A stretch of 64,000 nucleotides of DNA from positions 1,426,001 through 1,490,000 of the forward strand of contig NZ_CP059059.1 in assembly GCF_014217855.1 (NCBI RefSeq). Direction: 5' to 3'. Shown here one piece after another: positions 1 through 45,826 of this stretch (position 1 is the first letter of the stretch; every line of letters starts with the position of its first letter). This DNA is from Synechococcus sp. HK01-R (GTDB lineage: Bacteria > Cyanobacteriota > Cyanobacteriia > PCC-6307 > Cyanobiaceae). Position numbers and translations under genes: made by a program. The notes beneath the pieces are model-generated. The model was not told the origin of the DNA. It did no database searches and worked only from the letters and a program-made list of their open reading frames with translations.

Positions 1-474
1 CTCGCCGCGATCAAATAGCTCCCGGGCGATCAGCAACGCCTCCACGGTCTTGCCAAGCCCCACCTCATCGGCGATCAGCACCCGGGTGACGGCTTGCTTG
101 AGGGCCATCAACAACGGCACCAGCTGGTAGGGCCGTGGCTCCAGCGCCACATTGCCGAGGCTGCGGAACGGCCCTGCGCCAGCGCGGAGTTTGAGCAGCA
201 GGGCATCCCGCAGCAGCAACGCCGAACTTTGTGAGCCACTTTGGGCTGGATCCGGCGGATCAAAGCTGGCTGGCTTCACCGCTGCGCCTTCTAGCGGCCA
301 ATACAAGGTGGCGATCGTCTGATCTCCACCTCCCAGGGGCCGAAGTTTGAGCACCTGCTCCTGCTTCTCAGTGCTGCTCTGGGGCAAGGCGATCCACTCA
401 CGCCCGCGCACCTTCACGATCGAACCGGGGCTGGGGATGTCGATGGGAGCCGCAGGGGTTGGTGTCAGCGTCAT
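1..474 (-). CDS. SNF2-family ATPase, N-terminal part (runs off the window)
   Basis: The first 158 codons are present and the rest lies left of the window. The end of the visible part carries a SNF2-type Walker A motif (ADEVGLGKT) just after the EPRPYQL stretch that usually precedes it in SF2 helicases. The N-terminal region (KVRGREW, then [17 protein letters not shown]) resembles the SNF2 proteins of DISARM-like defence loci (DrmD) as I remember them; that is an inference. The start codon overlaps the stop of the DUF262 gene (ATGA), so the two are translationally coupled and this is the fourth gene of the operon. Confidence 0.85.
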
Positions 475-2432
475 GCGTCGATCTCCTCGAGGGCAGCGGT
501 GGTTTCGTCGTCTTCATCCAATTGAGGAAGACCTTCCTCACCCGCAGATTGCGTTCCCTCAACGGCAATCGTCTTACCGATCACGCGGCTGATTAGCTCG
601 AGCAGATCACGCCTTCGTTGCTCATAGAAAGCCTCAAAGGCGTCACGCCTGAGATGTTCGGGGTGAATGCTGTGCGAGTGCAACAGCGCATCCATCTCCG
701 TTCTGCCATTTCCGACTTCATCTCCTTCCTTGCCTTGGTGCTTGAGATAAGCCTTCTCCAGCTTTGGCAGGTAAATCGATGGCGCTGCCCCACCAATGAC
801 TCGGTTGGTTCGCGCCGTCAGAGGAGTCTTGTTGAGAATTGAATTCGCCTGATCTGTGTCAATGCCCTGGGCTTCACACCACACAGCGGGGAAAACGTGG
901 TGGATATCAATCGCGTCTTCGTAGAAGATGGAGTCGTCGATCGGCCTGCCTGTGCGGAAATCTTTGGCCTGTTCGCGCAAAAGCAGTGTGTAAAGCCCTT
1001 TGTAAGCCGCACTGTTACGGGTGCGCATCGTGTCGAGCCGGCTGGGCCTGAAGTCAGCGTCGTAGACGGTGCTCGGGACGCCCTTCCCTTCAATCCAATG
1101 GATCACTTCAGGGAGATCCTTTCCGAAGCGCGTTTCAATTGCGCCCCCGTAAAGCTCTCCGAGAACACCGCACCAGTACCACTGCTCTACTTTTTGCGTG
1201 GTTGCAGCAGCGTTGTAGTCGTCCCCCAGGCTGCTCAAGATGGCAGCAAGGGGCACCAGCTGAGTGACATATGGAAGATCTTTGCTGCGGTAATAGCCCT
1301 GTTGAATCAGGAAACGGCCTGCTCGAAAAAAGCCCAGCTCTGCTTGATCGGCCCATTGTTGGTATTCACTGAGTGGCAGATCGAGGATGGTGGCGCGCTT
1401 GCAGCTGATGCCTGTACACTTCTCAATTGGCAGTTGAGAGTTCTGCTGATCCAGTTCTCGGCGCTGACGGGTTGAGAGCAGGGCGACGCATTGCAGAAAG
1501 TCGGTCTCACGAACAGCCTTGAGGATCTTTCCGAGCCGCTGAACACCATCCGTTTTGCCATGTTCACGACCCGCTAAGAAACGCTGATAGCGGCCTTCGA
1601 TGGCCTCGTCTCCATCACGTGCTTTGCGGCCATACCAATCAGCCCTGAGATCAAATCCATCAGCGGCATAGCTGGCCGTCACCAGTTCAAACGCATTCAG
1701 CTTCACCCCGCCGGTATTGACCTTCTCAAACACCTGGCAGACCGCTTCGCGTCGACTGCTTTTTGCCAAGGTGATGACCGGAAGTTGGTATTCACAGAAG
1801 GGAGCAATCACCTTGTCTTGAAACGCGGTGTACACCTCAAAAGCCTCAGAGAACTGCTCGGTTTCCTTCCAATGTTTGACATAACCCGTTTGCCAGCTCG
1901 ACGCTTCGTAAATCCTGCCAAGCGGGAAAAGCTGGAGCTCGTATTCAAGTTCTGATGTGGAGAGATCGAGCCCCTTACGCCCAGCAACATCAGGACGTAT
2001 CCGGTCAGCTGGAACATCGATGACGGCTTCCTCCAGCAAATCGGGGTTATTAAGCAGCCTGTTCATATCCAGGTAGTACCAGCGTTCAACCTTCTGCTTG
2101 CGTTCGTTCTCCGTCTTTGCAGCAGAACCCATCAAAGTGGCCTGAAACATGGAGGTCAGGCGTTGCTGGCCATCAAGAATCAGGAGCTCAGGATCGGGCG
2201 TCTGTCCTTGAAAATGCAGCCCCTCTACAGGCCTGGTTTGAAAACGAACCTCACCACCCGCTTCCAGTAACATCACAGCACCGATGGGATATTGCCGAAT
2301 CACAGAGGCAATCAACTCCTTGATCTGCTCGTTTTTCCAAACCCAGCCCCGCTGAAATTCAGGTAACTGAATGGTTCCTTTTCTCAGTTCCTGGAGAAGT
2401 TCGCGAAGGGAACGCTTTGTGCTGTCAAACAT
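471..2432 (-). CDS. DUF262 / HNH (DUF1524-like) protein, GmrSD-type
   Basis: This 653-residue protein has a DUF262 domain at the N-terminus with the signature [10 protein letters not shown] near residue 88, a ParB/sulfiredoxin-like fold in which DGQQR is the nucleotide-binding motif. An HNH-like motif, IDIHHVFP, sits near residue 512, in a C-terminal domain like DUF1524. The same pairing is found in GmrS-GmrD type modification-dependent endonucleases, so nucleotide-dependent DNA cleavage is plausible but inferred. Its start overlaps the stop of the upstream helicase (TGATG) and its stop overlaps the SNF2 start, so it is an internal member of a tight operon. Confidence 0.85.
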
Positions 2433-5400
2433 CAGCTTTTCCCCTCACCAAACAACCAGCTGTATTCGCTCAAAACTTCCGGCCAACTGCTGGTGTCCTG
2501 GGTAAACACCACAACCGAGATCCCTGCATCGATCAGGGCCTGGCGCTTCTGTTGGTCCAGCCGTTGCTGCAGTGGTTTGTCGTGATGGGGGCCATCGATG
2601 AACACCACAACACAGGCCTCCTTGTAGGTGAAGTCCGGGGTGACGTAGTGACCCGGCACCTCCTGTTGAGCGTTGTCAGGAAGCGTGTGGCCATGCCGGT
2701 AAAGGGTGTCGAGCCAGAGCCTTTCCAGACCACTGCCGGCTAGCTCCTTGAGCCGCTCCAGCAACGCGCTGCGGCTATCCACTCCGCCCTGGCCCACCAG
2801 TTCACAGCGCGCCAGATCAAGCAGAACTTGTTTGAGCTCGGTGAGCTGGCGATCAATGAGGTCGTGATCGCGTTGGTTGTGATAGCCGAGCAGGCAGCGG
2901 TAGCAGCCCGCCTCACACTCGGGATCTGAGTTGATCAATTGGGATTCGAGGGCGGGCACCTCGCCGACCCAACTCCAGTGGCAGATCTCGAGGGCGGTTT
3001 TGCCCACGGCCTGCAAAGCGCTGGCGCTTTCCACCAGTCGGCTCAGAACGCCGGCACCACCTTCTGCCGATTCATAGAGCAGTAGCGCCGTTGCTGATTC
3101 TTCGTTGGGCATCAGCTCAGCTGCCACCTCACTGCCATCAAGCTGAAACGCCACTTCGATGCCCCGTTTGATCGCGCTCTTCACGCTCACCAGCTGTTGC
3201 GGCTCCCATTCCCCGAGGAAGCGAACCAACAATGCGTTTTTGCGGTCCTGCACGTAGGGCGTGATCTTCACGAAGCCCACTTCTGGGCCGTCGTCGTCGG
3301 CCGCATCGCCACGCATGTCTTTTTCGCCGCCCCACTGACCGTTGATCGGGTGGATCGGGAAGCCCATGTCGTTTTTGTTCTCCCGCCGCCGCCAGCCGAG
3401 GTTCACCCGGCTGATTTGCGTGGCCGGTGCGTAGCTGAGTTCCAGCAACGGTTGTCCCTCGCAACTCACCTGGGCCTTTGCCACTTTCACCACACCGTTG
3501 TCCTTGGGGAATTCGTAGGTGGTGATCAGCTCGTAGCCAAGGCGTTGGCGCTCTTCGTCGTCGGAAGTAATCCGATCAGCTCTCCTCGTGGTGACCTGCT
3601 CGATTTGATACAGCTTCGGGATCCGAACGGCTTGGCCCTCGGGATGCAGCTTGAGCGGTGTGCCGCAGTGGCAACACAGTTCTGATTCAGCGGCATCACC
3701 GAGATGGGCATGGCCGCAGGCCCCACACACCAGGGCGTCCTGCGTGGCGAGGGTTGCTGATCCGGCTGCAGCAGCGTTGTCCTGCAACCCCAGCAGCGCA
3801 CCTTTCACCTTGTAGGTGTTCCCCTCGTGATAGATCAGCGAGTGGGGACCGAATTCACTGATGCCGACAAACCGCGGGCGAGTGATGTAGGTGCCGCCGC
3901 CCACTTGTTCTCGTGTGCCAGGGATATACGCCATCAGCGGTAGACGCGGGAAGTTGTAGCCCGGCATGAAGCCTTGGCTTGCCAGGTATCGGTAGGTGCT
4001 GAAGTCGTTGTTGCTGTTGCCGCTGCCTGGCTTATCCGCCAGCAGCAACTGTTGTTGCATCCGTGCTGCTTTGAGACGGGTGTCGGCGGCCAGGCGCTCG
4101 CGCTCGCTGATGGCGTGGTTGCCCAGATCTTTGAGTGCCAGGTTGATCTGACCATCCACTGCCTCAAGTAGCTCACGCCAGCGGCTGAGCGCGGCTTCGA
4201 AATCCAGCGCGGCGCCATGGGTAATCGCTTCCAGCCAGCTGCCTGTAAGCCATGGCGGTGGCGTGCTTCCGAGCCATTGCTTCTCGATCAGGTCGTCAAC
4301 GATGGCCTGGCAATCAGCCTGGGCTGAGCGGTAGGCCTCATCCCTGGAGAGGGCCTCCATCAGCTCGGCTTGAACTGGCCGCCCTGGGGCACTGATGTTC
4401 ACCAGCTCCTTCACCTTCCCGGGCAGGCGCTGCCGAGTGGCTGCCAGCCAAAGCGCCCGGAAGTGGGCCTTGAGCAACTCTTCATTGGCCAATTCCAGCG
4501 TTGGAGCGCTTACAGCACCCGCCACCATCCGCACGGGATCCGCAAAAAAGTACTGGTCGTGGGGCGATGTGGCACCGCAGTAGCTGAGCACCAGAGCTGG
4601 TTGCCCGCTGCGGCCGGCGCGGCCGCTGCGCTGCGCGTAGTTCGCCGGCGTGGGCGGCACATTGCGCATGTAAACAGTGTTGAGCGATGAAATATCAACG
4701 CCCAATTCCATCGTGGGTGAGCAGTACATCAGCCGAAGGGCAGCACTGCGGAAGTCATCTTCCCGTCGTTCGCGCTCACTCGCATCCACTTGGGCTGTGT
4801 GCTCCCGTGCGGACAGCGTCTGCAGGAATGGTCGGCCTTCCGTTGCGATCAGATGGGCGAGGTCGGCGTAGAGACTTCGGAAGTAGGGGTTGACCGGCCC
4901 ACGTCGCCCACTGTTCTGCCGCACTTGTTCCAAACACGCGGCGTAGCGGTCCTGAGGTGGTGCTTCCGGGTCCACCAGAGTCCAACGCAGAGCAGTGCTG
5001 TTGAGGCGCCAACCTTGCATCACCTCACGAGCCTTGCTGCCAAGCCGCACGTCCACGGTCTTCACAAGGCCCCATGCCGAAAGCATCTCGAGGATGTGAC
5101 CCATCACCTCTTGGTAGAGGTCGTCCTTCCATTTCAGGGTTCGGTAGAGGTCTTCTGCCGAGAGCCAGCGTTCGCGTGCCTTCAGCCAGCGACCGAATTC
5201 ACCACGGAGCGATAAGCCTTCAACACCCCGGTTTCTGAGCTCCTGGGGGACTGGGCTTGTCACCACACTGCGGGCCAGCTCTGGCTTCTCCTCGCGGCCG
5301 ATGCTCCAGACCTCCTCAAGATCGGTTGCTGACTTCTTGCGCCGTTCAAATTCCTCTTGAATCAGTGCATCACAGTCGATCGCAAGTCGTTCCCTGAGCT

Positions 5401-7753
5401 CTTCCAGGAGGCGATGGCAGATCAGGAACCGTTCTTCACTGCTCGCTTGAGCCAGCAAAGGATGGCGCTGCCCCCAGTCCTCCTGGTCTTCGGCGCAATT
5501 CACCAGCTCCGCATAATCCACTTCAAGCAACCGCAGTTGCTCGAGGTTGGGATTGGTGAGCCGCCAGCCTTTGCGCAGGTCCACCATCAGCCGGTACTCC
5601 AACACTCCCCGCAGAGCACGGCGATTGCTTTGCTCGATGTTGGGTTTGACGTTGGGAATGGCGATGAAGTCTTCCGCATCGAGCCGTAGGGCTTTTTCCA
5701 CGGCCTGCGCCAGGGTTTCAAGGCTCAGTTCCTTCTCGGATTGCGCGCTCAATGCGGCAATGAGGCCTGCCCGTAGCTGCAGAACCCGCACAAAATCGTT
5801 GAAGTGGCCGGCCTGCAGTGATGCGTCCTGCCGGTTGTCACTGAAGGCCAGCAGTTTGCGGGCCTGATCAGGGATCTCCTTCGCTGGGAACGCCAGCAGT
5901 TGCCTCAGCACCGCCAGGCTCAAGGTGGTCGTGGCGGAGCTGCGGCCTTCTGAGTTGAGCCCACAAAGCTTGCGAAATTCGCTGCTGCGCACCCCGTGCT
6001 CCACACCACAGCTTGGGCAGAAGCGGAAACTCCCTTTCAGAAACCAGCCGGAAAGACCATCACTGCTCGCACCTCCATCGGAGCGAAAACGACAAGGCAC
6101 CGGGGCAAACTCCCGATACGTGCGCTTCAGGACAAGCTCGTCATTCTTGTCAGGCTCAAGCCAACCATCGGGAAAGTTGGCTTTGTCCAAGTCATCGATG
6201 GTGTATTCACCGTTGGCATCGGGCATGAAGTAGCCATTCACCACATCCCGTTCGCGAAGACTTGATTCGTCTTTGAAATCGCGTGGATCGATCTTGACCG
6301 GAACCTTGTTATTGAGATGGGCCCAGACTGGGTGAAACTCTTGCCCGCAGTTCCGGCAGAACACAACAGGGTAGAGCAGTGCCTGGCGCCCGGCATTGGG
6401 TTGGTACTTCTGTGCCTTCAGCGTGAGATAGCGTTCCTGAGGGGCTTGGAGAGATGCCTGTACTTCACCACCTGCGGAGACAAATTGATGCAGGCGAAAG
6501 GCAAAAAAGCGCCGATTCGGACCAACTTCCACCTGATAGGCAGCCAGAAGGAAATCCCTCAACGTTGCCAGGATCTGTTCCTCATTTAGCCCTGTTTGCT
6601 CGGCCAATGTGCTGGTGGCCTGCTGCAGGGTGTGCGGCTTACAGCGCACCCATTTGCCATCAGGCAACCCGTCTTCTTTCTCGAGGCCGAGCTTCAACTC
6701 AACCCAGCGGGCGAGAGGGTGCTGGCGTAAATCTTCAGCTGTCCAGGTTTCGGTTACTTGAGTCGAATAATCAACTCTTAGGGCCTGGGTTAACTCTTCC
6801 TGGTTGGGAAGATCACCTTCAGTGCAGCGCTGCAGCGTCTCCGTGACGATGTGTTCGCTGGGGATTTCGGTGCCAAACAGCTTGCTGGCAACATGCGCCA
6901 CGGTGGCATTGCGTTCCTTGGCCGTGCCTTCTGAGGCCATGGTGGCCGAGGTGCCAATGCAGAGCAGATTGGCATTCAGTCGTTGTCTGACTCGGCGTAC
7001 CAAGAGTGCGACGTCCGCACCCTGCCTCCCTCGATAGGTATGCAACTCGTCAAGCACCAGGAACTCCAGTCCCTTGGCGTCGCCGATGACTTTCTGATCG
7101 AGTGGATCCTGCCGGGTCAGGATGTACTCGAGCATCACATAGTTGGTGAGCAGGATGTCGGGGGGATCATTCTTGATCTTCTCCCGCTCTTCATCGCTTT
7201 CCTGACCTGTATATCGCGCAAAAGTGACTTTCGGGCCTTCCGGATAGCCAAGGCCGAGATATTTCTGTAATTCCTCTTGCTGGCTATTGCACAGCGCATT
7301 CATCGGATAAATCACAATCGCCCGAATGCGTTTCTGCTGATCCCCTCGCGCTCGCGCTTCCAGAACCCGATTCACGATCGGAATGATGTAACCCAGCGAC
7401 TTACCGGAGCCCGTGCCCGAAGTCACCACAAAGCTGCCGCCACGGCTGGCAATTTCAATGGCATCGCGTTGATGGCGGTGCAGTTGTAGCTCTTGCCCGG
7501 GGCCGTTGTCCTTACCCCAGCGGAAGATCCGGCTGCATTCCGGATGCAAAAGCCCTGCGTCCACTAGCTCGCTGATGGCGCCGCCGCTCACAAAGCTTGG
7601 ATTCAGCTGGATGAGTGGTGAAGGCCAATACTCGCCCTTGCCATAGGTCCCATCCACAAACGACTGGAGATCGGGCGCTTTGATCTGGGTGAAGCTGCGC
7701 GAGAACTGGCCGTAGTCCTCAATAACCCGGTCTCGGAAGGAAAAGACGTCCAT
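2432..7753 (-). CDS. Giant DEAD/DEAH helicase with DUF1998 and C-terminal nuclease-like domain
   Basis: The protein has 1773 residues. In order: Walker A TSGTGSGKS near residue 113, DEAH-type motif VLDELHTYRG near 233, helicase C-terminal motifs (ELGVDISSLN, then RSGRAGRSGQ) near 1038, several Cys pairs (CRNC, CPSC, CGAC...CCHC), a DUF1998 domain with CEAGCYRC near 1616, and a C-terminal stretch with PDF...VVFIDGPHH that looks like a Vsr/DUF559-type PD-(D/E)XK fold. Helicases of this build occur in Druantia (DruE) and, split in two, in DISARM (DrmA/DrmB). It is coupled at both ends to its neighbours by TGATG overlaps. Exact defence-system membership is not settled by sequence alone. Confidence 0.85.
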   Translation of the reverse strand: MDVFSFRDRVIEDYGQFSRSFTQIKAPDLQSFVDGTYGKGEYWPSPLIQLNPSFVSGGAISELVDAGLLHPECSRIFRWGKDNGPGQELQLHRHQRDAIEIASRGGSFVVTSGTGSGKSLGYIIPIVNRVLEARARGDQQKRIRAIVIYPMNALCNSQQEELQKYLGLGYPEGPKVTFARYTGQESDEEREKIKNDPPDILLTNYVMLEYILTRQDPLDQKVIGDAKGLEFLVLDELHTYRGRQGADVALLVRRVRQRLNANLLCIGTSATMASEGTAKERNATVAHVASKLFGTEIPSEHIVTETLQRCTEGDLPNQEELTQALRVDYSTQVTETWTAEDLRQHPLARWVELKLGLEKEDGLPDGKWVRCKPHTLQQATSTLAEQTGLNEEQILATLRDFLLAAYQVEVGPNRRFFAFRLHQFVSAGGEVQASLQAPQERYLTLKAQKYQPNAGRQALLYPVVFCRNCGQEFHPVWAHLNNKVPVKIDPRDFKDESSLRERDVVNGYFMPDANGEYTIDDLDKANFPDGWLEPDKNDELVLKRTYREFAPVPCRFRSDGGASSDGLSGWFLKGSFRFCPSCGVEHGVRSSEFRKLCGLNSEGRSSATTTLSLAVLRQLLAFPAKEIPDQARKLLAFSDNRQDASLQAGHFNDFVRVLQLRAGLIAALSAQSEKELSLETLAQAVEKALRLDAEDFIAIPNVKPNIEQSNRRALRGVLEYRLMVDLRKGWRLTNPNLEQLRLLEVDYAELVNCAEDQEDWGQRHPLLAQASSEERFLICHRLLEELRERLAIDCDALIQEEFERRKKSATDLEEVWSIGREEKPELARSVVTSPVPQELRNRGVEGLSLRGEFGRWLKARERWLSAEDLYRTLKWKDDLYQEVMGHILEMLSAWGLVKTVDVRLGSKAREVMQGWRLNSTALRWTLVDPEAPPQDRYAACLEQVRQNSGRRGPVNPYFRSLYADLAHLIATEGRPFLQTLSAREHTAQVDASERERREDDFRSAALRLMYCSPTMELGVDISSLNTVYMRNVPPTPANYAQRSGRAGRSGQPALVLSYCGATSPHDQYFFADPVRMVAGAVSAPTLELANEELLKAHFRALWLAATRQRLPGKVKELVNISAPGRPVQAELMEALSRDEAYRSAQADCQAIVDDLIEKQWLGSTPPPWLTGSWLEAITHGAALDFEAALSRWRELLEAVDGQINLALKDLGNHAISERERLAADTRLKAARMQQQLLLADKPGSGNSNNDFSTYRYLASQGFMPGYNFPRLPLMAYIPGTREQVGGGTYITRPRFVGISEFGPHSLIYHEGNTYKVKGALLGLQDNAAAAGSATLATQDALVCGACGHAHLGDAAESELCCHCGTPLKLHPEGQAVRIPKLYQIEQVTTRRADRITSDDEERQRLGYELITTYEFPKDNGVVKVAKAQVSCEGQPLLELSYAPATQISRVNLGWRRRENKNDMGFPIHPINGQWGGEKDMRGDAADDDGPEVGFVKITPYVQDRKNALLVRFLGEWEPQQLVSVKSAIKRGIEVAFQLDGSEVAAELMPNEESATALLLYESAEGGAGVLSRLVESASALQAVGKTALEICHWSWVGEVPALESQLINSDPECEAGCYRCLLGYHNQRDHDLIDRQLTELKQVLLDLARCELVGQGGVDSRSALLERLKELAGSGLERLWLDTLYRHGHTLPDNAQQEVPGHYVTPDFTYKEACVVVFIDGPHHDKPLQQRLDQQKRQALIDAGISVVVFTQDTSSWPEVLSEYSWLFGEGKS

Positions 7754-10700
7754 CAGCCCATCACCTCACACAACCGATTGATCTGCTCGGCTTCCGCCAC
7801 CGTGTTGGCGATGCCGCTAGCCAGACCCGGTGAACCCACCACGATCGAGAGGCATTGGGCGCGGCTGATCGCCACATTCAAGCGATTGGGCTCCAGCAGA
7901 AAGCTCAGCCCGCGAGGTGCTTCATCACCACTGCTCGCCGTGAGCGAGTGAATGGCAACCGGGGCCTCCTGGCCCTGGAACTTGTCCACCGTGCCCACCC
8001 GGGCTTTGCCAGCCAGCCGTTGCTGCAGCCGGTTCACCTGCACGTTGTAGGGCGCCGTCACCAGGATTGTGTCTGGCGTCAGCGTGCCTGCTGCGATGCC
8101 GCCGGCTTTGGCGTGTTGATAGCTGCCCCCCAGCAGGGCATCCACCAGCGATTCGATGCGGTTGATTTCTTCGTCGCTGCAGACGCTGTTGCCGCTGTGC
8201 GCCACCGGATCAAACACCAGGCCTTGACCTTGTAATAGCTGTCCGTCACTGCTTTGGCAGGGTGTGCCCCAGTTGATGCGGTTGGCGCAATTGGCGGGGC
8301 TGGCCTGTAGCCGGCCCTCGTAAAACAGTGCACTCACCATCGCCGTGAGGCTTGGTTCCATCCGCCAGCTGGTGGAGAGAAACACGCCGCGATCGTCTGG
8401 CACCACCGAGGCGCCTTCCATCCAGTACTCCAGGCAGCTCTGGCCTGAATTACCCGGGTGATCGGCCTGGGAGGGCTGGGCCAGTTGCTGTTGATCGCCC
8501 ACCAAAAGAATCGATCTGGCGCAGCGTGCCATCACCAGCAGATTGGCGAGCGACATCTGCCCCGCCTCATCCACCACCAGCCAATCGAACTGATTCGCCA
8601 GCTCCTCTTTGCAGAACATCCAGGTGGTGCCGCCCACCACCGCCATGGCCTCCGTGATTTGGCCGGGCTTCACCACGCTGATGCCTGCGGCGCTCAGCGC
8701 CTCTTCCTTGCTGTTGTTGCACTTCACCACCTCGCCGGCCACCCCTGCAGCGCTGCAGGTGCTCTTGGCTTTTTTGAGCAGGTTGTTGATGGCGGCGTGG
8801 CCGTTGGAGCTGATTGCCACCCGTTGGCCTGCGGCCACCAGCTGGGCGATCACCTGGCCGGTGACGGTGGTTTTGCCCGTGCCCGGTGGCCCCTGCAGCG
8901 CCAGGCTGATGCCGGAATGCTCCTGCAGAAAACCCGCCAGGGCATCGCCAACGGCGTTGGGATCTTCGGCAATGGCTGCATTGAGCTCTTGGAGTGCCGG
9001 CAGGGGGTGCCGTTCCAGCAGTTGCAGGATCGCTGGTGGGATCGGCTGGTGCTCGTGCACCCATGCCATGGCCTGCTCTTCCAGCTGTTCGCGCAGGCTC
9101 TTGCTGATGTCGGCCGGCACCTTGATCACCGAGGTGGCGTGTTTGGGGATGCCCTCGCCTTCGCCGTTGGCAAGGCGTTGATCGCGCTTGCTCCAGGGCA
9201 GCTTCAGGCTCAGCGTTCCCCGTTCGGCATCGAGCGCATCCACATCCAGCTTCAAGCCGGTGGCGGGCAGTTCAACGGTGAGCCGGCCGTCGCCATCGCC
9301 GGCATGCAATTTCAGCGGTTGGCTGGGGTCAAAGCGGAAGTGGTGGATGTCGGCGCCGGTGCGGGCACTGGGGCGTTCGTCCATCCCTACCCATTGGGCG
9401 TCGGCGATCGCTTCGCCGTCATCGATCAGCTCCGCTGGGCTGAGTTCGGCCTTGGAGCGGCGATCGAAATAGGCCCACCAGCCCACCTTGGCTTCGCGGT
9501 GGTGGAACGGCAGCAGCTGAGCCAGCAGCCTGTGAGTACGCCAGCTCATCCCGCGTGGCCCCAGAGCATCCTCATCTGCCAGGTGGTCAGGAATCTCTTC
9601 GAGCAGCTGTTGGCTGAGCAGCTCGAGGGGTTGTGGTTCCCGTGGCTCCTGAGCAGCCTCATCAGGGGGCTGCTGCAGGGGTTGCTCTGGCAGGCCTTGC
9701 TCACGCCTGAGCTTCAGCAGCCAGTCGTGCAGGAACACCGTGCTTTCGCAGTCTTCGCGGTTGTAGTCCTCAATCGCCTGCAGCTTCGGGCTGGCTTTCG
9801 GTGCTTCCCCGGGCATCTCTGGCTCGCCGGAGAGCTGCCAGTGCAGGTAAGCCACCACCGAATCGCCGGCGTTGGTCACCCCCGCCTGGCGCTGCTCCAT
9901 ATAAAGGTGCTCCACCTTCTTGATCGAGTAGCTCGGCTCACCGAGCACAATTGCGCTGGTCACCACCGGCAGCAGGTCAACCAGCAGGCCGCTGCGCAGC
10001 CAGTCGTCGATCTCCGCTTCCCGCGTGGCGTGCTGCTGGGCCAGACGCCGCATCGCCGTTTTCTCGTAGGCCGCGTAGTGGTAGACGTGCAGGCCCGGAT
10101 GGCTCCGGCGCCGCGCTTCCACCCAATCCACCCAGTCTTCGAAAGCGGTTTTTTCTTCGGCCTCACTGTGGGCCCACCAGCCCTTGAAGCGGGGCTTGGC
10201 CTCTGGACTATCGCGGTAGCAAGCGCCAAAAAGGTATTCCAGCTTGGTTCCCGCCACGGAATCCTGGATGCCCTCCATGTCGAACCAGATGTCGCCGGGA
10301 TCCGCTGCCGGCAGTGCATCCAAACCTTTGCCCGCTACCAGCGGCCGCAGCCGATAGGCCGGCCGGCCGTTGGCATCCACAGGGGCGAGTTGCAGTTCAG
10401 CTTGTTGGCGCAGCTCATGCAAGGCCTCGCCAGACAGCCCTTTCACGCTGCTGCCAGCCGGCAACGCCGCCAGCTGCTCGATTGTGTTGATGCCTTCGGC
10501 GCGCAGTTTCTGGCGTTGGCTCTGGCGCATGCCCGCCACCAGCATCAGATCGCGCTGCTGCTCGAGCCGTTCGTCGATGAAGGCCGTCCAGCCGCCGTGA
10601 TCACCCGGGGAATCCTCGGGCGCTTGGCTGGGGTCAAAGCTCTGTTGAAACGTCGCGAAGCGTTGGCGCAGCAGTTGGTACCAGGCCCAGAATTGATCGG

Positions 10701-11229
10701 TGGCGTAGCGCTGAAACTTGCCGCCGCCCAAGTACAGCTCGAACTGATCGGGGCGATGCCCCAGCAGTGGAGTGAGCAGTTCGCAGTAGGCCGAGGCCTG
10801 CACCAGGAAGGTGGTTTTGGGCTTGCTGGCGAGCTTGCATTCGATCGGGATGTAGCTCCAATCGCCCAGGGCCGATGGCTGCTCGATCCTGCGCAACAGA
10901 TCGGCACTGCCGCGCATGCCGCCATGGCACATCGAGGCCTGATGGATGAAGTCGAAGCCGTCGGCCATCGCAGCCTGGGTGGCGGCGTAGTCAGCGTCGG
11001 TTTGTTTGCCGGGCAGCCGGGCAATGCTGTGGCCTGCCTTTTCCAGCTTGGTGAGCAGCACCTGCTCGTGGCGCAGGCCATCAGCAAACAGCTGCTGATC
11101 CAGCTCACTCACCGCTGGCTTGCTGCCTTCAAACAGCTTCTGCGCCTGCAGCTCCTCCCACCAGGACCCGATCACGGGGCTGATGCTGAACAGCGACAGC
11201 TGGCTCGGTGTGATCAGGCGGGTGGGCAT
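7753..11229 (-). CDS. TM0106-family RecB-like nuclease fused to SF1 (Dna2/Nam7-type) helicase
   Basis: The 1158-residue protein starts with a RecB-like PD-(D/E)XK nuclease (GSADLL, then PIECKLA near residue 130 and QASAYCELL), continues with an RNase H-like exonuclease domain (DIWFDMEG near 315), and ends with an SF1 helicase: Walker A QGPPGTGKTT near 780, Walker B VVDEAGQ near 888, GTVDKFQGQE and the final NVAISRA motif. It should degrade or unwind nucleic acid in the cytoplasm. It is the first gene of the four-gene minus-strand operon. A degenerate relic of a close homologue lies at about 43130-43360. Confidence 0.9.
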   Translation of the reverse strand: MPTRLITPSQLSLFSISPVIGSWWEELQAQKLFEGSKPAVSELDQQLFADGLRHEQVLLTKLEKAGHSIARLPGKQTDADYAATQAAMADGFDFIHQASMCHGGMRGSADLLRRIEQPSALGDWSYIPIECKLASKPKTTFLVQASAYCELLTPLLGHRPDQFELYLGGGKFQRYATDQFWAWYQLLRQRFATFQQSFDPSQAPEDSPGDHGGWTAFIDERLEQQRDLMLVAGMRQSQRQKLRAEGINTIEQLAALPAGSSVKGLSGEALHELRQQAELQLAPVDANGRPAYRLRPLVAGKGLDALPAADPGDIWFDMEGIQDSVAGTKLEYLFGACYRDSPEAKPRFKGWWAHSEAEEKTAFEDWVDWVEARRRSHPGLHVYHYAAYEKTAMRRLAQQHATREAEIDDWLRSGLLVDLLPVVTSAIVLGEPSYSIKKVEHLYMEQRQAGVTNAGDSVVAYLHWQLSGEPEMPGEAPKASPKLQAIEDYNREDCESTVFLHDWLLKLRREQGLPEQPLQQPPDEAAQEPREPQPLELLSQQLLEEIPDHLADEDALGPRGMSWRTHRLLAQLLPFHHREAKVGWWAYFDRRSKAELSPAELIDDGEAIADAQWVGMDERPSARTGADIHHFRFDPSQPLKLHAGDGDGRLTVELPATGLKLDVDALDAERGTLSLKLPWSKRDQRLANGEGEGIPKHATSVIKVPADISKSLREQLEEQAMAWVHEHQPIPPAILQLLERHPLPALQELNAAIAEDPNAVGDALAGFLQEHSGISLALQGPPGTGKTTVTGQVIAQLVAAGQRVAISSNGHAAINNLLKKAKSTCSAAGVAGEVVKCNNSKEEALSAAGISVVKPGQITEAMAVVGGTTWMFCKEELANQFDWLVVDEAGQMSLANLLVMARCARSILLVGDQQQLAQPSQADHPGNSGQSCLEYWMEGASVVPDDRGVFLSTSWRMEPSLTAMVSALFYEGRLQASPANCANRINWGTPCQSSDGQLLQGQGLVFDPVAHSGNSVCSDEEINRIESLVDALLGGSYQHAKAGGIAAGTLTPDTILVTAPYNVQVNRLQQRLAGKARVGTVDKFQGQEAPVAIHSLTASSGDEAPRGLSFLLEPNRLNVAISRAQCLSIVVGSPGLASGIANTVAEAEQINRLCEVMG

Positions 11230-12609: not shown

Positions 12610-12792
12610 ATGCCCCCGGCCTACGACCTGATCCTGCAACGACGCGGACAGCTGCAGACCGAAACCGTGCAGGTGAGCGATGCCGCCGCGGCATGGCGTC
12701 TGGGCCGTGATCGCTACCCCGAGTGCATTCGTGGGGTGGTGTGCCGCGATCACTCTTCTGTTGATGCTGCTGAGCCGGATTCACGCAGCTAG
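12610..12792 (+). CDS. Conserved-type small protein, 60 residues
   Basis: ATG start with AAGGAG about ten bases upstream. The sequence (YDLILQRRGQLQTETVQVSD, then AWRLGRDRYPECIRGVV) is compact and soluble-looking, with no membrane segment or known motif. I do not recognise the family. A longer in-frame start upstream is possible but would run across the palindromes. Confidence 0.6.
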   Translation: MPPAYDLILQRRGQLQTETVQVSDAAAAWRLGRDRYPECIRGVVCRDHSSVDAAEPDSRS

Positions 12793-12818
12793 AACAAGGG
12801 CTCTCGACCTCGCTGGTG

Positions 12819-13528
12819 ATGGAACTGCGGCTGGAGTCGCAAGCGCTGCTCGAGGCGATGCATCAGGCAGAGCAGTTTTTCAGAATCAGCGGGTCGTGGC
12901 CTGCATGGGCGATCGCTTTGCCCTCAGCTGCCTTTGCCTGGCGGAGCCGATTCGACGTTCGATGGTGGGCGCTGCCACCACAGAAGACGAAGGTTTGGAA
13001 CTGGTGCTACGCACCCAACCCAGCCTGTTGATCTGCAGTTCGGATCTGGAAAGTGGCTACGGCATTGATCTGCTCAAACGGGTGAAGGCGGAGCTGCCCA
13101 CCTGCCAGCTGCTGATCTTGCTGGTGCGTGAAACCAAGGAGGTGGTGCAGGAGGCGATGGAAGCTTTCGCTGATGCCGTGGTCTTTAAATCCAGCCTGGG
13201 CAGCGGCAAGGGCGATTTCATTCAGGCTTTGGCCACCCTCGCCGAAGGCGGGGTGTATTTCCCCGAGGAGATTCGTAAGCTTGGTGCTGCGCAGTCACCC
13301 CGACCTGATCTTCCGCCTTTGGTGGAAGAACTCAGCGACCGGGAACGTGATGTGGTGGCAGGCGTGGCCCGCGGCCTCACCAATCAGGCCATTGCCGAAA
13401 GCCTCGCCATTTCCCTGGAAACGGTGAAAACCCATGTGGTGAATGCCAAAGACAAACTTGGCGCTGCTGATCGCACCCAATTGGCGGTGATGGCCTTGCT
13501 TTATGGCCTGATTGATCCATTGGGGTGA
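12819..13528 (+). pseudogene. LuxR-type response regulator, frameshifted near its N-terminus
   Basis: Paralogue of the intact gene at 45116-45826; the two are collinear and end identically in LYGLIDPLG. The LuxR helix-turn-helix (RDVVAGVARGLTNQAIAESL...ETVKTHV) is intact. The N-terminal frame (MELRLESQALLEAMHQAEQFF) leaves phase at a run of five T at 12876-12880; a sixth T would join it to QNQRVVACMGDRF in the main frame. Either the gene is broken, the run slips during expression, or translation begins at ATG 12905. The receiver-like half lacks the phosphoacceptor Asp (LLICSSDLE), so the protein is phosphorylation-independent if made. Confidence 0.75.
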
Positions 13529-45031: not shown

Positions 45032-45115
45032 GCTTGCGTCTCGGCCTGTGTCGTGATGCTGTTGCCCAGATCTCACGAAGCAGGCAGGCTCAGCCTGAGC
45101 ACGCTGGTTCTCCGG

Positions 45116-45826
45116 ATGGAACTTCGCCTCGGATCCCCGTCCATCCTGAGGGCCCTCGAGACGGCCGAGCGTCTGCTGGCCGATCAGCGTTTGGTGGCTG
45201 TGATGGCCGATCGCCTCACCCTGTCGGCCTTTGCCCTGGCCGGGCCCGTGCGCCCCGGCCTGGTGGGTGCCGCCACCACCGAAGACGAGGGTCTGCAGCT
45301 GGTGCTGCGCACCCAGCCCGATCTGCTGATCGCCTGCGATGGTCTCGAAGCGGGCTACGGCATCAGCTTGCTGCGCCGCGTGAAGGCAGAGCTGCCCACC
45401 ACGCGCTTGCTGATCTTCCTGGAGCGTGAAACCCGGGAGGTGGTGCAGGAGGCCATGGAGGCCCACGCCGATGCGGTGATGTTCAGATCGAGCATGGGCA
45501 GTGGTGAGAGCGATTTCATCCAGGCCCTCAACGCCGTCGCCGAAGGCAAGGTGTATTACCCCGAAGCGATCCGCAGCCTGGCGGCTCAGTGCAGCCCCAG
45601 GCCAGGCCTGCCGCCGCTGGTGGAGGAGCTCAGCGCCAGGGAGCTGCAGGTGGCTGCTGCCGTGGCCCGCGGGCTCTCCAACAAAGAGATCGGTGATCTG
45701 TATGGCATCTCGCCGGAAACGGTGAAAACCCATGTGAGCAACGCCTCCGACAAGCTCGGCGCCAGCGATCGCACCCAGCTGGCGGTGCTGGCCCTCCTCT
45801 ACGGCCTGATTGATCCGTTGGGGTGA
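45116..45826 (+). CDS. LuxR-type response regulator, intact paralogue
   Basis: 236 residues from MELRLGSPSIL, collinear with the frameshifted copy at 12819-13528. N-terminal receiver-like domain (ATTEDEGLQLVLRTQPDLLI) lacks the phosphoacceptor Asp: the position reads IACDGLEAGYG, with Cys where Asp is expected. The C-terminal LuxR domain (VAAAVARGLSNKEIGDLYGI, then PETVKTHVSNASDKLG) binds DNA. Such atypical regulators act without phosphorylation; target genes are not visible here. Confidence 0.8.
   Translation: MELRLGSPSILRALETAERLLADQRLVAVMADRLTLSAFALAGPVRPGLVGAATTEDEGLQLVLRTQPDLLIACDGLEAGYGISLLRRVKAELPTTRLLIFLERETREVVQEAMEAHADAVMFRSSMGSGESDFIQALNAVAEGKVYYPEAIRSLAAQCSPRPGLPPLVEELSARELQVAAAVARGLSNKEIGDLYGISPETVKTHVSNASDKLGASDRTQLAVLALLYGLIDPLG

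Follow-up and report, generated by a model that had tools for sequence, protein, structure and literature searches.

A seven-gene operon on the reverse strand of Synechococcus sp. HK01-R has the gene trio of an ARMADA type I system at its core, and we consider it likely that the operon as a whole is an anti-phage system of ARMADA type I extended by accessory genes, in which host DNA would be marked, unmarked DNA attacked, a DUF262 protein would contribute a further layer and a TM0106-family protein would process DNA ends. The operon (C1:1416897-1437229, ~20.3 kb) crosses the left edge of the window, by which we mean the 64,000-nucleotide stretch C1:1426001-1490000 of the complete 2.48-Mb genome (C1 is contig NZ_CP059059.1; coordinates without this prefix are positions in the window). 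In order, the genes encode a TM0106-family protein, a YprA helicase, a DUF262 protein, an SNF2 helicase, a methyltransferase, a WD40 protein and a GHKL-STAS protein, of 1158, 1773, 653, 989, 1296, 494 and 408 amino acids (aa). Reading frames are intact in all seven genes, and the successive junctions measure -1, -1, -4, +3, 0 and +2 nucleotides (nt).

The original prediction, made from the window, described four coupled genes on the reverse strand, at 7753-11229, 2432-7753, 471-2432 and 1-474, the last being part of the SNF2 gene, with stop and start codons overlapping by 1, 1 and 4 nt. This layout stands. The window edge cuts the operon so that only the first 158 codons of the SNF2 gene lie inside; leftward the gene runs to C1:1423505 and is completed to 989 aa. 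The remark that no methyltransferase is in view is accurate for the window and fails just beyond it, where a 1296-aa adenine methyltransferase gene lies 3 nt after the SNF2 gene, followed by the WD40 (gap 0) and GHKL-STAS (gap 2) genes.

The core trio is that of ARMADA type I

ARMADA has been defined by a YprA helicase, a BrxHII-like helicase and a PglX-like methylase (PMC12458937, Bell et al. 2025 preprint; this and the other papers named here are cited from excerpts), and type I usually keeps this gene order, its YprA bearing a Vsr tail (PMC12458937). Our operon shares with type I a YprA gene with a Vsr tail in first place, a BrxHII/SNF2 gene next and an adenine methylase gene third, with no ArmD-like gene. 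It differs in the DUF262-HNH gene inside the trio, the TM0106 gene ahead of it and the WD40 and GHKL-STAS genes behind it; the words DUF262, GmrSD, WD40 and RecB do not occur in the preprint's main text. We use the names ArmA, ArmB and ArmC by analogy only, for the SNF2, methyltransferase and YprA proteins. The order YprA, SNF2, methyltransferase is kept with the DUF262 gene interposed and recurs in related loci; in the relative G291, the BrxHII/RapA-like SNF2 gene that comes after DUF262 here adjoins YprA directly (G and L labels denote genomes and loci of sampled relatives, G000 being this genome). The assignment of the trio to ARMADA type I is well supported. An earlier view of the operon as defence-type with no clean match to a named system holds insofar as it is related to DISARM and Druantia and identical to neither, but the operon is not nameless, because its YprA-SNF2-methylase core is that of the published ARMADA type I.

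The trio is conserved across many phyla. Among the best 80 of 539 SNF2-homologue loci in genome_contigs, SNF2 was called on the forward strand in 76 with our own caller of open reading frames (ORFs); YprA lies upstream of SNF2 in 69 of these, no more than 300 nt away in 59, and a methyltransferase lies downstream in 62. The closest named SNF2 loci within this set include a Cyanobium (82%) and a Synechococcaceae contig (65%). This SNF2 is present in 25 of 386 cyanobacterial genomes (E <= 1e-60), 22 of which yielded 23 stretches: a methylase stands behind SNF2 in 21 of them and YprA is found in 18, before SNF2 in 5 and after it in 13, while 5 have no YprA in view, some of them at contig ends. 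All three proteins carry intact motifs, namely GLGKT and DEAH in SNF2, DPACGSG and NPPW in the methyltransferase, and TGSGKS and DE in YprA.

The YprA-family (ArmC-like) SF2 helicase (2432..7753, reverse strand) combines DEAD, Helicase_C and MZB (MrfA zinc-binding) domains in the Pfam and NCBIfam searches, and MZB has been equated with DUF1998 (PMC12458937). The nuclease-like tail predicted earlier for this giant DUF1998 helicase is borne out by alignment, modelling and structural comparison. Residues 1625-1773 (2435..2881, reverse strand) are modelled with a Vsr-type nuclease fold at a pLDDT (predicted local distance difference test) score of 88, and VIA-align superposes the tail on Vsr (1cw0) with a Z of 8.9 over 92 residues at 2.5 Å and on I-Bth0305I with a Z of 9.5; Foldseek alone returned no match for it at E <= 0.001. 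In an alignment of homologues, the PDF...FIDGPHH motif is intact here and missing from one sub-branch. ARMADA-like YprA proteins without the PDF/DGPHH residues in the alignment rows shown are those of L100, L105, L107, L108, L114, L119, L124, L125 and L131. The loss suggests that the tails of this sub-branch are nuclease-dead.

Profile scores place the YprA helicase closest to DruE, the PADLOC models giving 334 bits for DruE3, 295 for DruE1, 86 for DpdJ and 47 for DrmA. If the locus were Druantia type III with additional genes, DruE3 and DruE1 as best models would be explained, yet no DruH match appears among those listed for the seven proteins (the best 25 matches for YprA, SNF2 and the methylase), the helicase ends in a Vsr tail and not in two PLD domains as reported for Druantia III (PMC12458937), and the SNF2 and methyltransferase partners are conserved. 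We regard this explanation as very improbable. We give still less credence to a standard DISARM class 1 locus. The locus is related to DISARM, in that the PADLOC models DrmD and DrmMI match SNF2 (283 bits) and the methyltransferase (216 bits). For the SNF2/BrxHII-like (ArmA-like) protein, which contains an SNF2-related domain, the best model is nevertheless the DpdE entry (631 bits, full length), with the BrxHI/BrxHII models at 183 bits and a RapA match at 111 bits, and the NCBIfam DrmD model reaches 333 bits against a cut-off of 610. The other helicase is DruE-like and not DrmA-like, and neither DrmB (DUF1998) nor DrmC (PLD) is found among the same lists of matches. What the genes to the left complete is a locus related to DISARM, with no DrmB, DrmC or DruH in those lists. 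On partner genes, the locus cannot be called DISARM, Druantia, Dpd or Hma; although SNF2 scores best with a model labelled DpdE, a Dpd model is the top match for none of the other six proteins. ARMADA type II was likewise rejected, having the order SNF2-methyltransferase-YprA followed by a GajB-like/RelE ArmD, which differs from the order here, and no UvrD-type Pfam match, as ArmD of type II would lead one to expect, is found among the seven proteins.

Several points weigh against the ARMADA type I reading. The type tested experimentally in the preprint is II, not I (PMC12458937). A BrxA-like helical insert after RecA1 is a stated hallmark of ARMADA (PMC12458937), and the corresponding segment here (YprA residues 275-665, model pLDDT 82) gave no Foldseek match at E <= 0.001. 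The methylase scores 216 bits with the PADLOC DrmMI model, 160 with type IIG and 50 with PglX, and the NCBIfam PglX model gives 47 bits against a cut-off of 400; "PglX-like" is a loose label for it, because the PglX score lies far under those of DrmMI and type IIG.

Three occurrences of related genes elsewhere were recorded in passing. A UvrD-type helicase gene lies between YprA and SNF2 in a cyanobacterium (L040:15025-17082) and a planctomycete (L139:7899-9989); the proteins, of 685 and 696 aa, share 46% identity, and the gene could be an ArmD-like gene within a type I operon. An ARMADA-like operon is found on plasmid MP1 of Deinococcus radiodurans (L231, NC_000958.1:157173-168669), where the methylase is annotated as two genes. 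Near full-length SNF2 relatives occur on three predicted viral contigs (L233, L234 and L235; 8 loci matched, the other 5 weakly).

The methylase differs between relatives in its C-terminal half

The adenine methyltransferase (ArmB-like; C1:1419611-1423501, reverse strand, left of the window) has Eco57I/N6_Mtase Pfam matches; a search of PDB sequences returned no match at E <= 0.01. The operons of G291 and G221 are near-copies of that of G000, their YprA and SNF2 proteins being 95-98% identical to ours and at least 84% identical in every 50-residue window. The methylases of the three genomes are 94-97% identical over residues 1-790 and only 29-41% identical over residues 800-1285. The reverse pattern, a C-terminal part ahead of the N-terminal part by more than 5 points, was seen in two of 45 methylase pairs, G000-G342b (58% for the N-part, 72% for the C-part) and G000-L077 (56% and 69%), which are not independent because G342b and L077 resemble each other closely. 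Seven further pairs, mostly distant, have the C-part ahead by 1 to 4 points. The C-terminal half has been exchanged between relatives, a feature new here. Exchange of this kind is known from specificity domains in other restriction systems, which is why sequence-specific self-marking is the best reading of the pattern; the alignments suggest as much.

Two facts count against this simple picture. The C-part of the G000 methylase also stands 1-4 points over the N-part in comparison with two distant rows; a mild excess is therefore not telling, since distant rows show it too. Deletion of the methylase gene from an Escherichia coli type II cluster abolished protection (PMC12458937), so the methylase probably takes part in attack besides protecting the host, by analogy with type II, and a plain restriction-modification (R-M) reading misfits because the methylase is needed for attack there. 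The alleles of G000, G291 and G221, with near-identical motors and different methylase C-halves, make it directly testable what is read and by which protein.

A housekeeping DNA-repair operon resembling MrfAB would be an alternative to defence, as a YprA helicase together with a PF13482 exonuclease, the family to which MrfB/YprB presumably belongs, recalls the MrfA/MrfB pair. We think it improbable: the system is patchily spread (25 of 386 cyanobacterial genomes), half of its methylase is exchanged, and relatives carry R-M or Hma operons at this position. MrfB is a 3'-5' exonuclease (PMC12458937).

A DUF262-HNH gene is embedded between YprA and SNF2

The 653-aa protein encoded between the YprA and SNF2 genes (471..2432, reverse strand) matches GmrSD_N (PF03235) with 112 bits and carries DGQQR at residue 87 and HHVF at residue 511. 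We read the latter as a putative HNH motif, in a part of the protein for which Pfam made no call, so that of the features of a GmrSD type IV enzyme DUF262 and DGQQR are present and the HNH part is a motif reading. After the YprA stop, G291 has only the first 15 nt of the DUF262 gene, and the SNF2 start region comes next; this 15-nt scar means that DUF262 was lost in G291 while the reading frames of the core remained open. DUF262 genes likewise follow YprA in G221 and in the distant cyanobacterium G170, the latter with 44% identity. This pattern makes DUF262 an accessory gene of the operon, which is new here. The slot between YprA and SNF2 holds an ORF of at least 100 aa in 8 of 69 wider loci; among the five that we scanned are M78-type, Abi_2, UvrD-type and NB-ARC/TPR proteins and one without a match.

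A precedent, and the one on which we model this gene, is BrxU, a DUF262-HNH enzyme within a BREX operon that cleaves modified DNA and complements BREX (PMC8565348). The likeness to BREX with embedded BrxU (pEFER, PMC8565348) lies in a DUF262/HNH gene inserted within a methylation-based defence operon; the difference is that the host operon is BREX there and ARMADA here. Among the PDB matches of our protein, the only one named DUF262 is 7p9k (E 1e-4), and that code appears a single time in PMC8565348. The protein's top PDB matches are to designed PPR repeat proteins, over residues of about 192-252 with E down to 5e-10, and were not used.

TM0106 is a leader gene of several unrelated systems

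The first gene (7753..11229, reverse strand) encodes a RecB-like nuclease joined to an SF1 helicase, with matches to TIGR03491 (212 bits, cut-off 97), PF13482 and AAA_11/AAA_12. Columns conserved in at least 93% of 45 aligned rows include D110, K132, D317, E319, D418, D493, G780-P-P-G783 and G785-K786. On a sequence reading, D110 and K132 would be part of a PD-(D/E)xK site, the expected E130 falling under the 93% mark; D317, E319, D418 and D493 would form a DEDD 3'-5' exonuclease site, and the glycine-rich stretch most of a Walker A motif. The same architecture, an RNase H-like exonuclease, a PD-(D/E)xK-like domain and tandem AAA domains, has already been described for the COG2251/TM0106 family (PMC3985635), in a description that in its excerpts has no defence context. 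Among the titles listed in searches of open-access papers, we recognised none that links TM0106 or COG2251 to defence. The gene is present in 14 of 386 cyanobacterial genomes (E <= 1e-40) and in 43 of 330 genomes of the host's family (E <= 1e-60); sixteen viral-contig loci have TM0106 relatives, several of them partial or weak.

We compared the window with 43 further TM0106 loci. In this sample of 44, which comes from nearly one family (G374 lies outside it) and has no matched control gene, the next gene overlaps the TM0106 stop by 1 or 4 nt in 11 loci. The overlapping partner is ARMADA in the window, G291 and G221, Hma in G272 and G227, a type I R-M system in G401 and G627, an HKD-SNF2 gene with DUF4391 and a type III R-M system in G400, and SbcD/SbcC-like in G598, G221b and G408 (both genes partial in G408). 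TM0106 was rejected as a core gene of ARMADA: it appears in just two of the 23 cyanobacterial stretches, G291 and G221, and among the best 80 of 539 wider loci only L079 matched (63 bits, 27%). It is instead a leader gene of several unrelated systems, a finding new here.

Exchange also touches the TM0106 gene itself. In nt windows 2-4 the G291 allele is 88-92% identical to G401/G598 and 74-80% to G000, and in nt windows 7-10 it is 94-96% identical to G000 and G400 and 67-86% to G401/G598. The comparison marks it as a clear recombinant and puts the crossover near nt 1200-1700. At the end of the gene, one set of last codons is common to both Hma carriers almost letter for letter and another to the ARMADA carriers; we rejected partner-specific tails, as the type I carrier G401 nearly has the ARMADA tail and the type I carrier G627 differs. 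In a quick TM0106 tree, a single mixed group with a support of 94 contains ARMADA, Hma, type III, PolA-associated and unpartnered rows. The TM0106 gene of G388 lacks most of its middle; 2 nt after it come a DUF262 gene and an SNF2 fragment. On plasmids (6 picked from 66), TM0106 lies near annotated defence genes in four cases, the neighbours being E2/ThiF, type I R-M with McrBC, BREX and Abi/DUF4011, and not clearly so in two.

We tentatively propose, while thinking it rather more apt to fail than to hold, that TM0106 nuclease-helicases assist methylation-based restriction in general: the enzyme, made from a first gene under translational coupling, would finish off DNA opened by ARMADA, Hma or type I/III systems, these systems being exchanged as cassettes behind it, partly by recombination within the TM0106 gene. 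If so, the island would be a natural plug-in socket for restriction systems, and help given to several unrelated systems would explain the neighbourhood and supply a DNA-degrading step. That modules can move among unrelated immune systems has been described for nuclease-protease pairs (PMC12799240). The proposal resembles that case in one enzymatic module passed among unrelated immune systems, and differs in that the module here is a single nuclease-helicase protein, the operons are of restriction or end-processing type and there is no protease.

Such help cannot be general, because TM0106 is labelled in few ARMADA loci, only about its last 213 residues are left beside ARMADA in G221 (a second copy, 54%, lies elsewhere), and 33 of the 43 loci have no overlap with the next gene, often with no recognised partner, although most neighbours were not domain-scanned. 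The same lack of overlap would fit two independent neighbours, TM0106 (with or without DUF262) being a stand-alone defence or repair gene that marks an island hotspot, with ARMADA behind it by chance and the overlaps reflecting compact packing only. The system behind TM0106 changes freely between genomes, the neighbour of TM0106 in G189 is a PolA-AAA gene, and in Novosphingobium error-prone polymerase genes lie nearby, as this explanation would allow. Opposed to it are the 1- or 4-nt overlaps in 11 of 44 loci, with five kinds of partner that are all restriction or DNA-end-processing operons, and the retention of the overlap though the last TM0106 codons differ in several loci, a point tempered by the nearly ARMADA-like tail of G401. 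We see chance neighbourhood as a real possibility, though one that we would not expect to prove correct. The neighbouring gene in G189 (L184:2954-7657), which overlaps the TM0106 start, codes for 1567 aa that combine AAA, 3'-5' exonuclease and DNA polymerase A domains.

Proposed mechanism

As an ARMADA type I operon with accessory genes, the locus would protect this host from phages in the following order. The ArmB-like methyltransferase would recognise a sequence through its C-terminal half and mark host DNA there. Two ATP-driven motors, the SNF2 translocase and the YprA helicase, would engage foreign unmarked DNA, and the Vsr nuclease at the YprA C terminus would cut the engaged DNA. The DUF262-HNH protein may supply a second layer, type IV-like and directed at modified phage DNA, in the way that BrxU does within BREX, and the TM0106 nuclease-helicase may degrade or process the ends made by restriction, as a helper shared with other systems exchanged behind it. 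An E. coli ARMADA type II cluster blocked 13 of 80 phages without cell death (PMC12458937), and a 2026 review groups ARMADA with systems in which unmodified DNA is recognised but is restricted "by unknown mechanisms" (PMC12904381). The original prediction went further, in that the coupled genes must act as one complex or pathway. This is not supported: DUF262 is deleted in G291, TM0106 is a fragment in G221 and is found without the ARMADA SNF2 gene in relatives, and the WD40 gene is missing from the G291 and G221 operons. The WD40 and GHKL-STAS proteins also have no role in the model, which counts against it.

Trailing and neighbouring genes

The last two genes of the operon lie left of the window on the reverse strand, WD40 at C1:1418126-1419610 and GHKL-STAS at C1:1416897-1418123. 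The GHKL-STAS label combines DUF4325/STAS matches with our own sequence reading of the GHKL part. This protein occurs in 4 of 386 cyanobacterial genomes (E <= 1e-20), three of which are G000, G221 and G291; the ARMADA carrier G342 is without it. It matches (L003:8897-10123) positions 45-394 of the 1750-position PADLOC "DrmA" model with 290 bits; GHKL-STAS may be fused to a DISARM-type helicase in other genomes, or the model may be mis-joined.

Beyond the last gene, on the opposite strand, lies rmuC (C1:1415418-1416875, forward strand). RmuC is also downstream on the opposite strand in 7 of the 43 TM0106 loci (G627, G272, G227, G401, G400, G388 and G390); in G390, TM0106 and RmuC are near each other with no overlapping operon, and a 732-aa gene of no assigned identity lies between them. 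No orthologous empty site was established among 31 genomes of the genus, RmuC being found in 7 and a LuxR-like flank in 26, with paralogues and variable spacing. The window itself holds two LuxR-type regulators, at 12680-13528 and 45035-45823, which are 62% identical.

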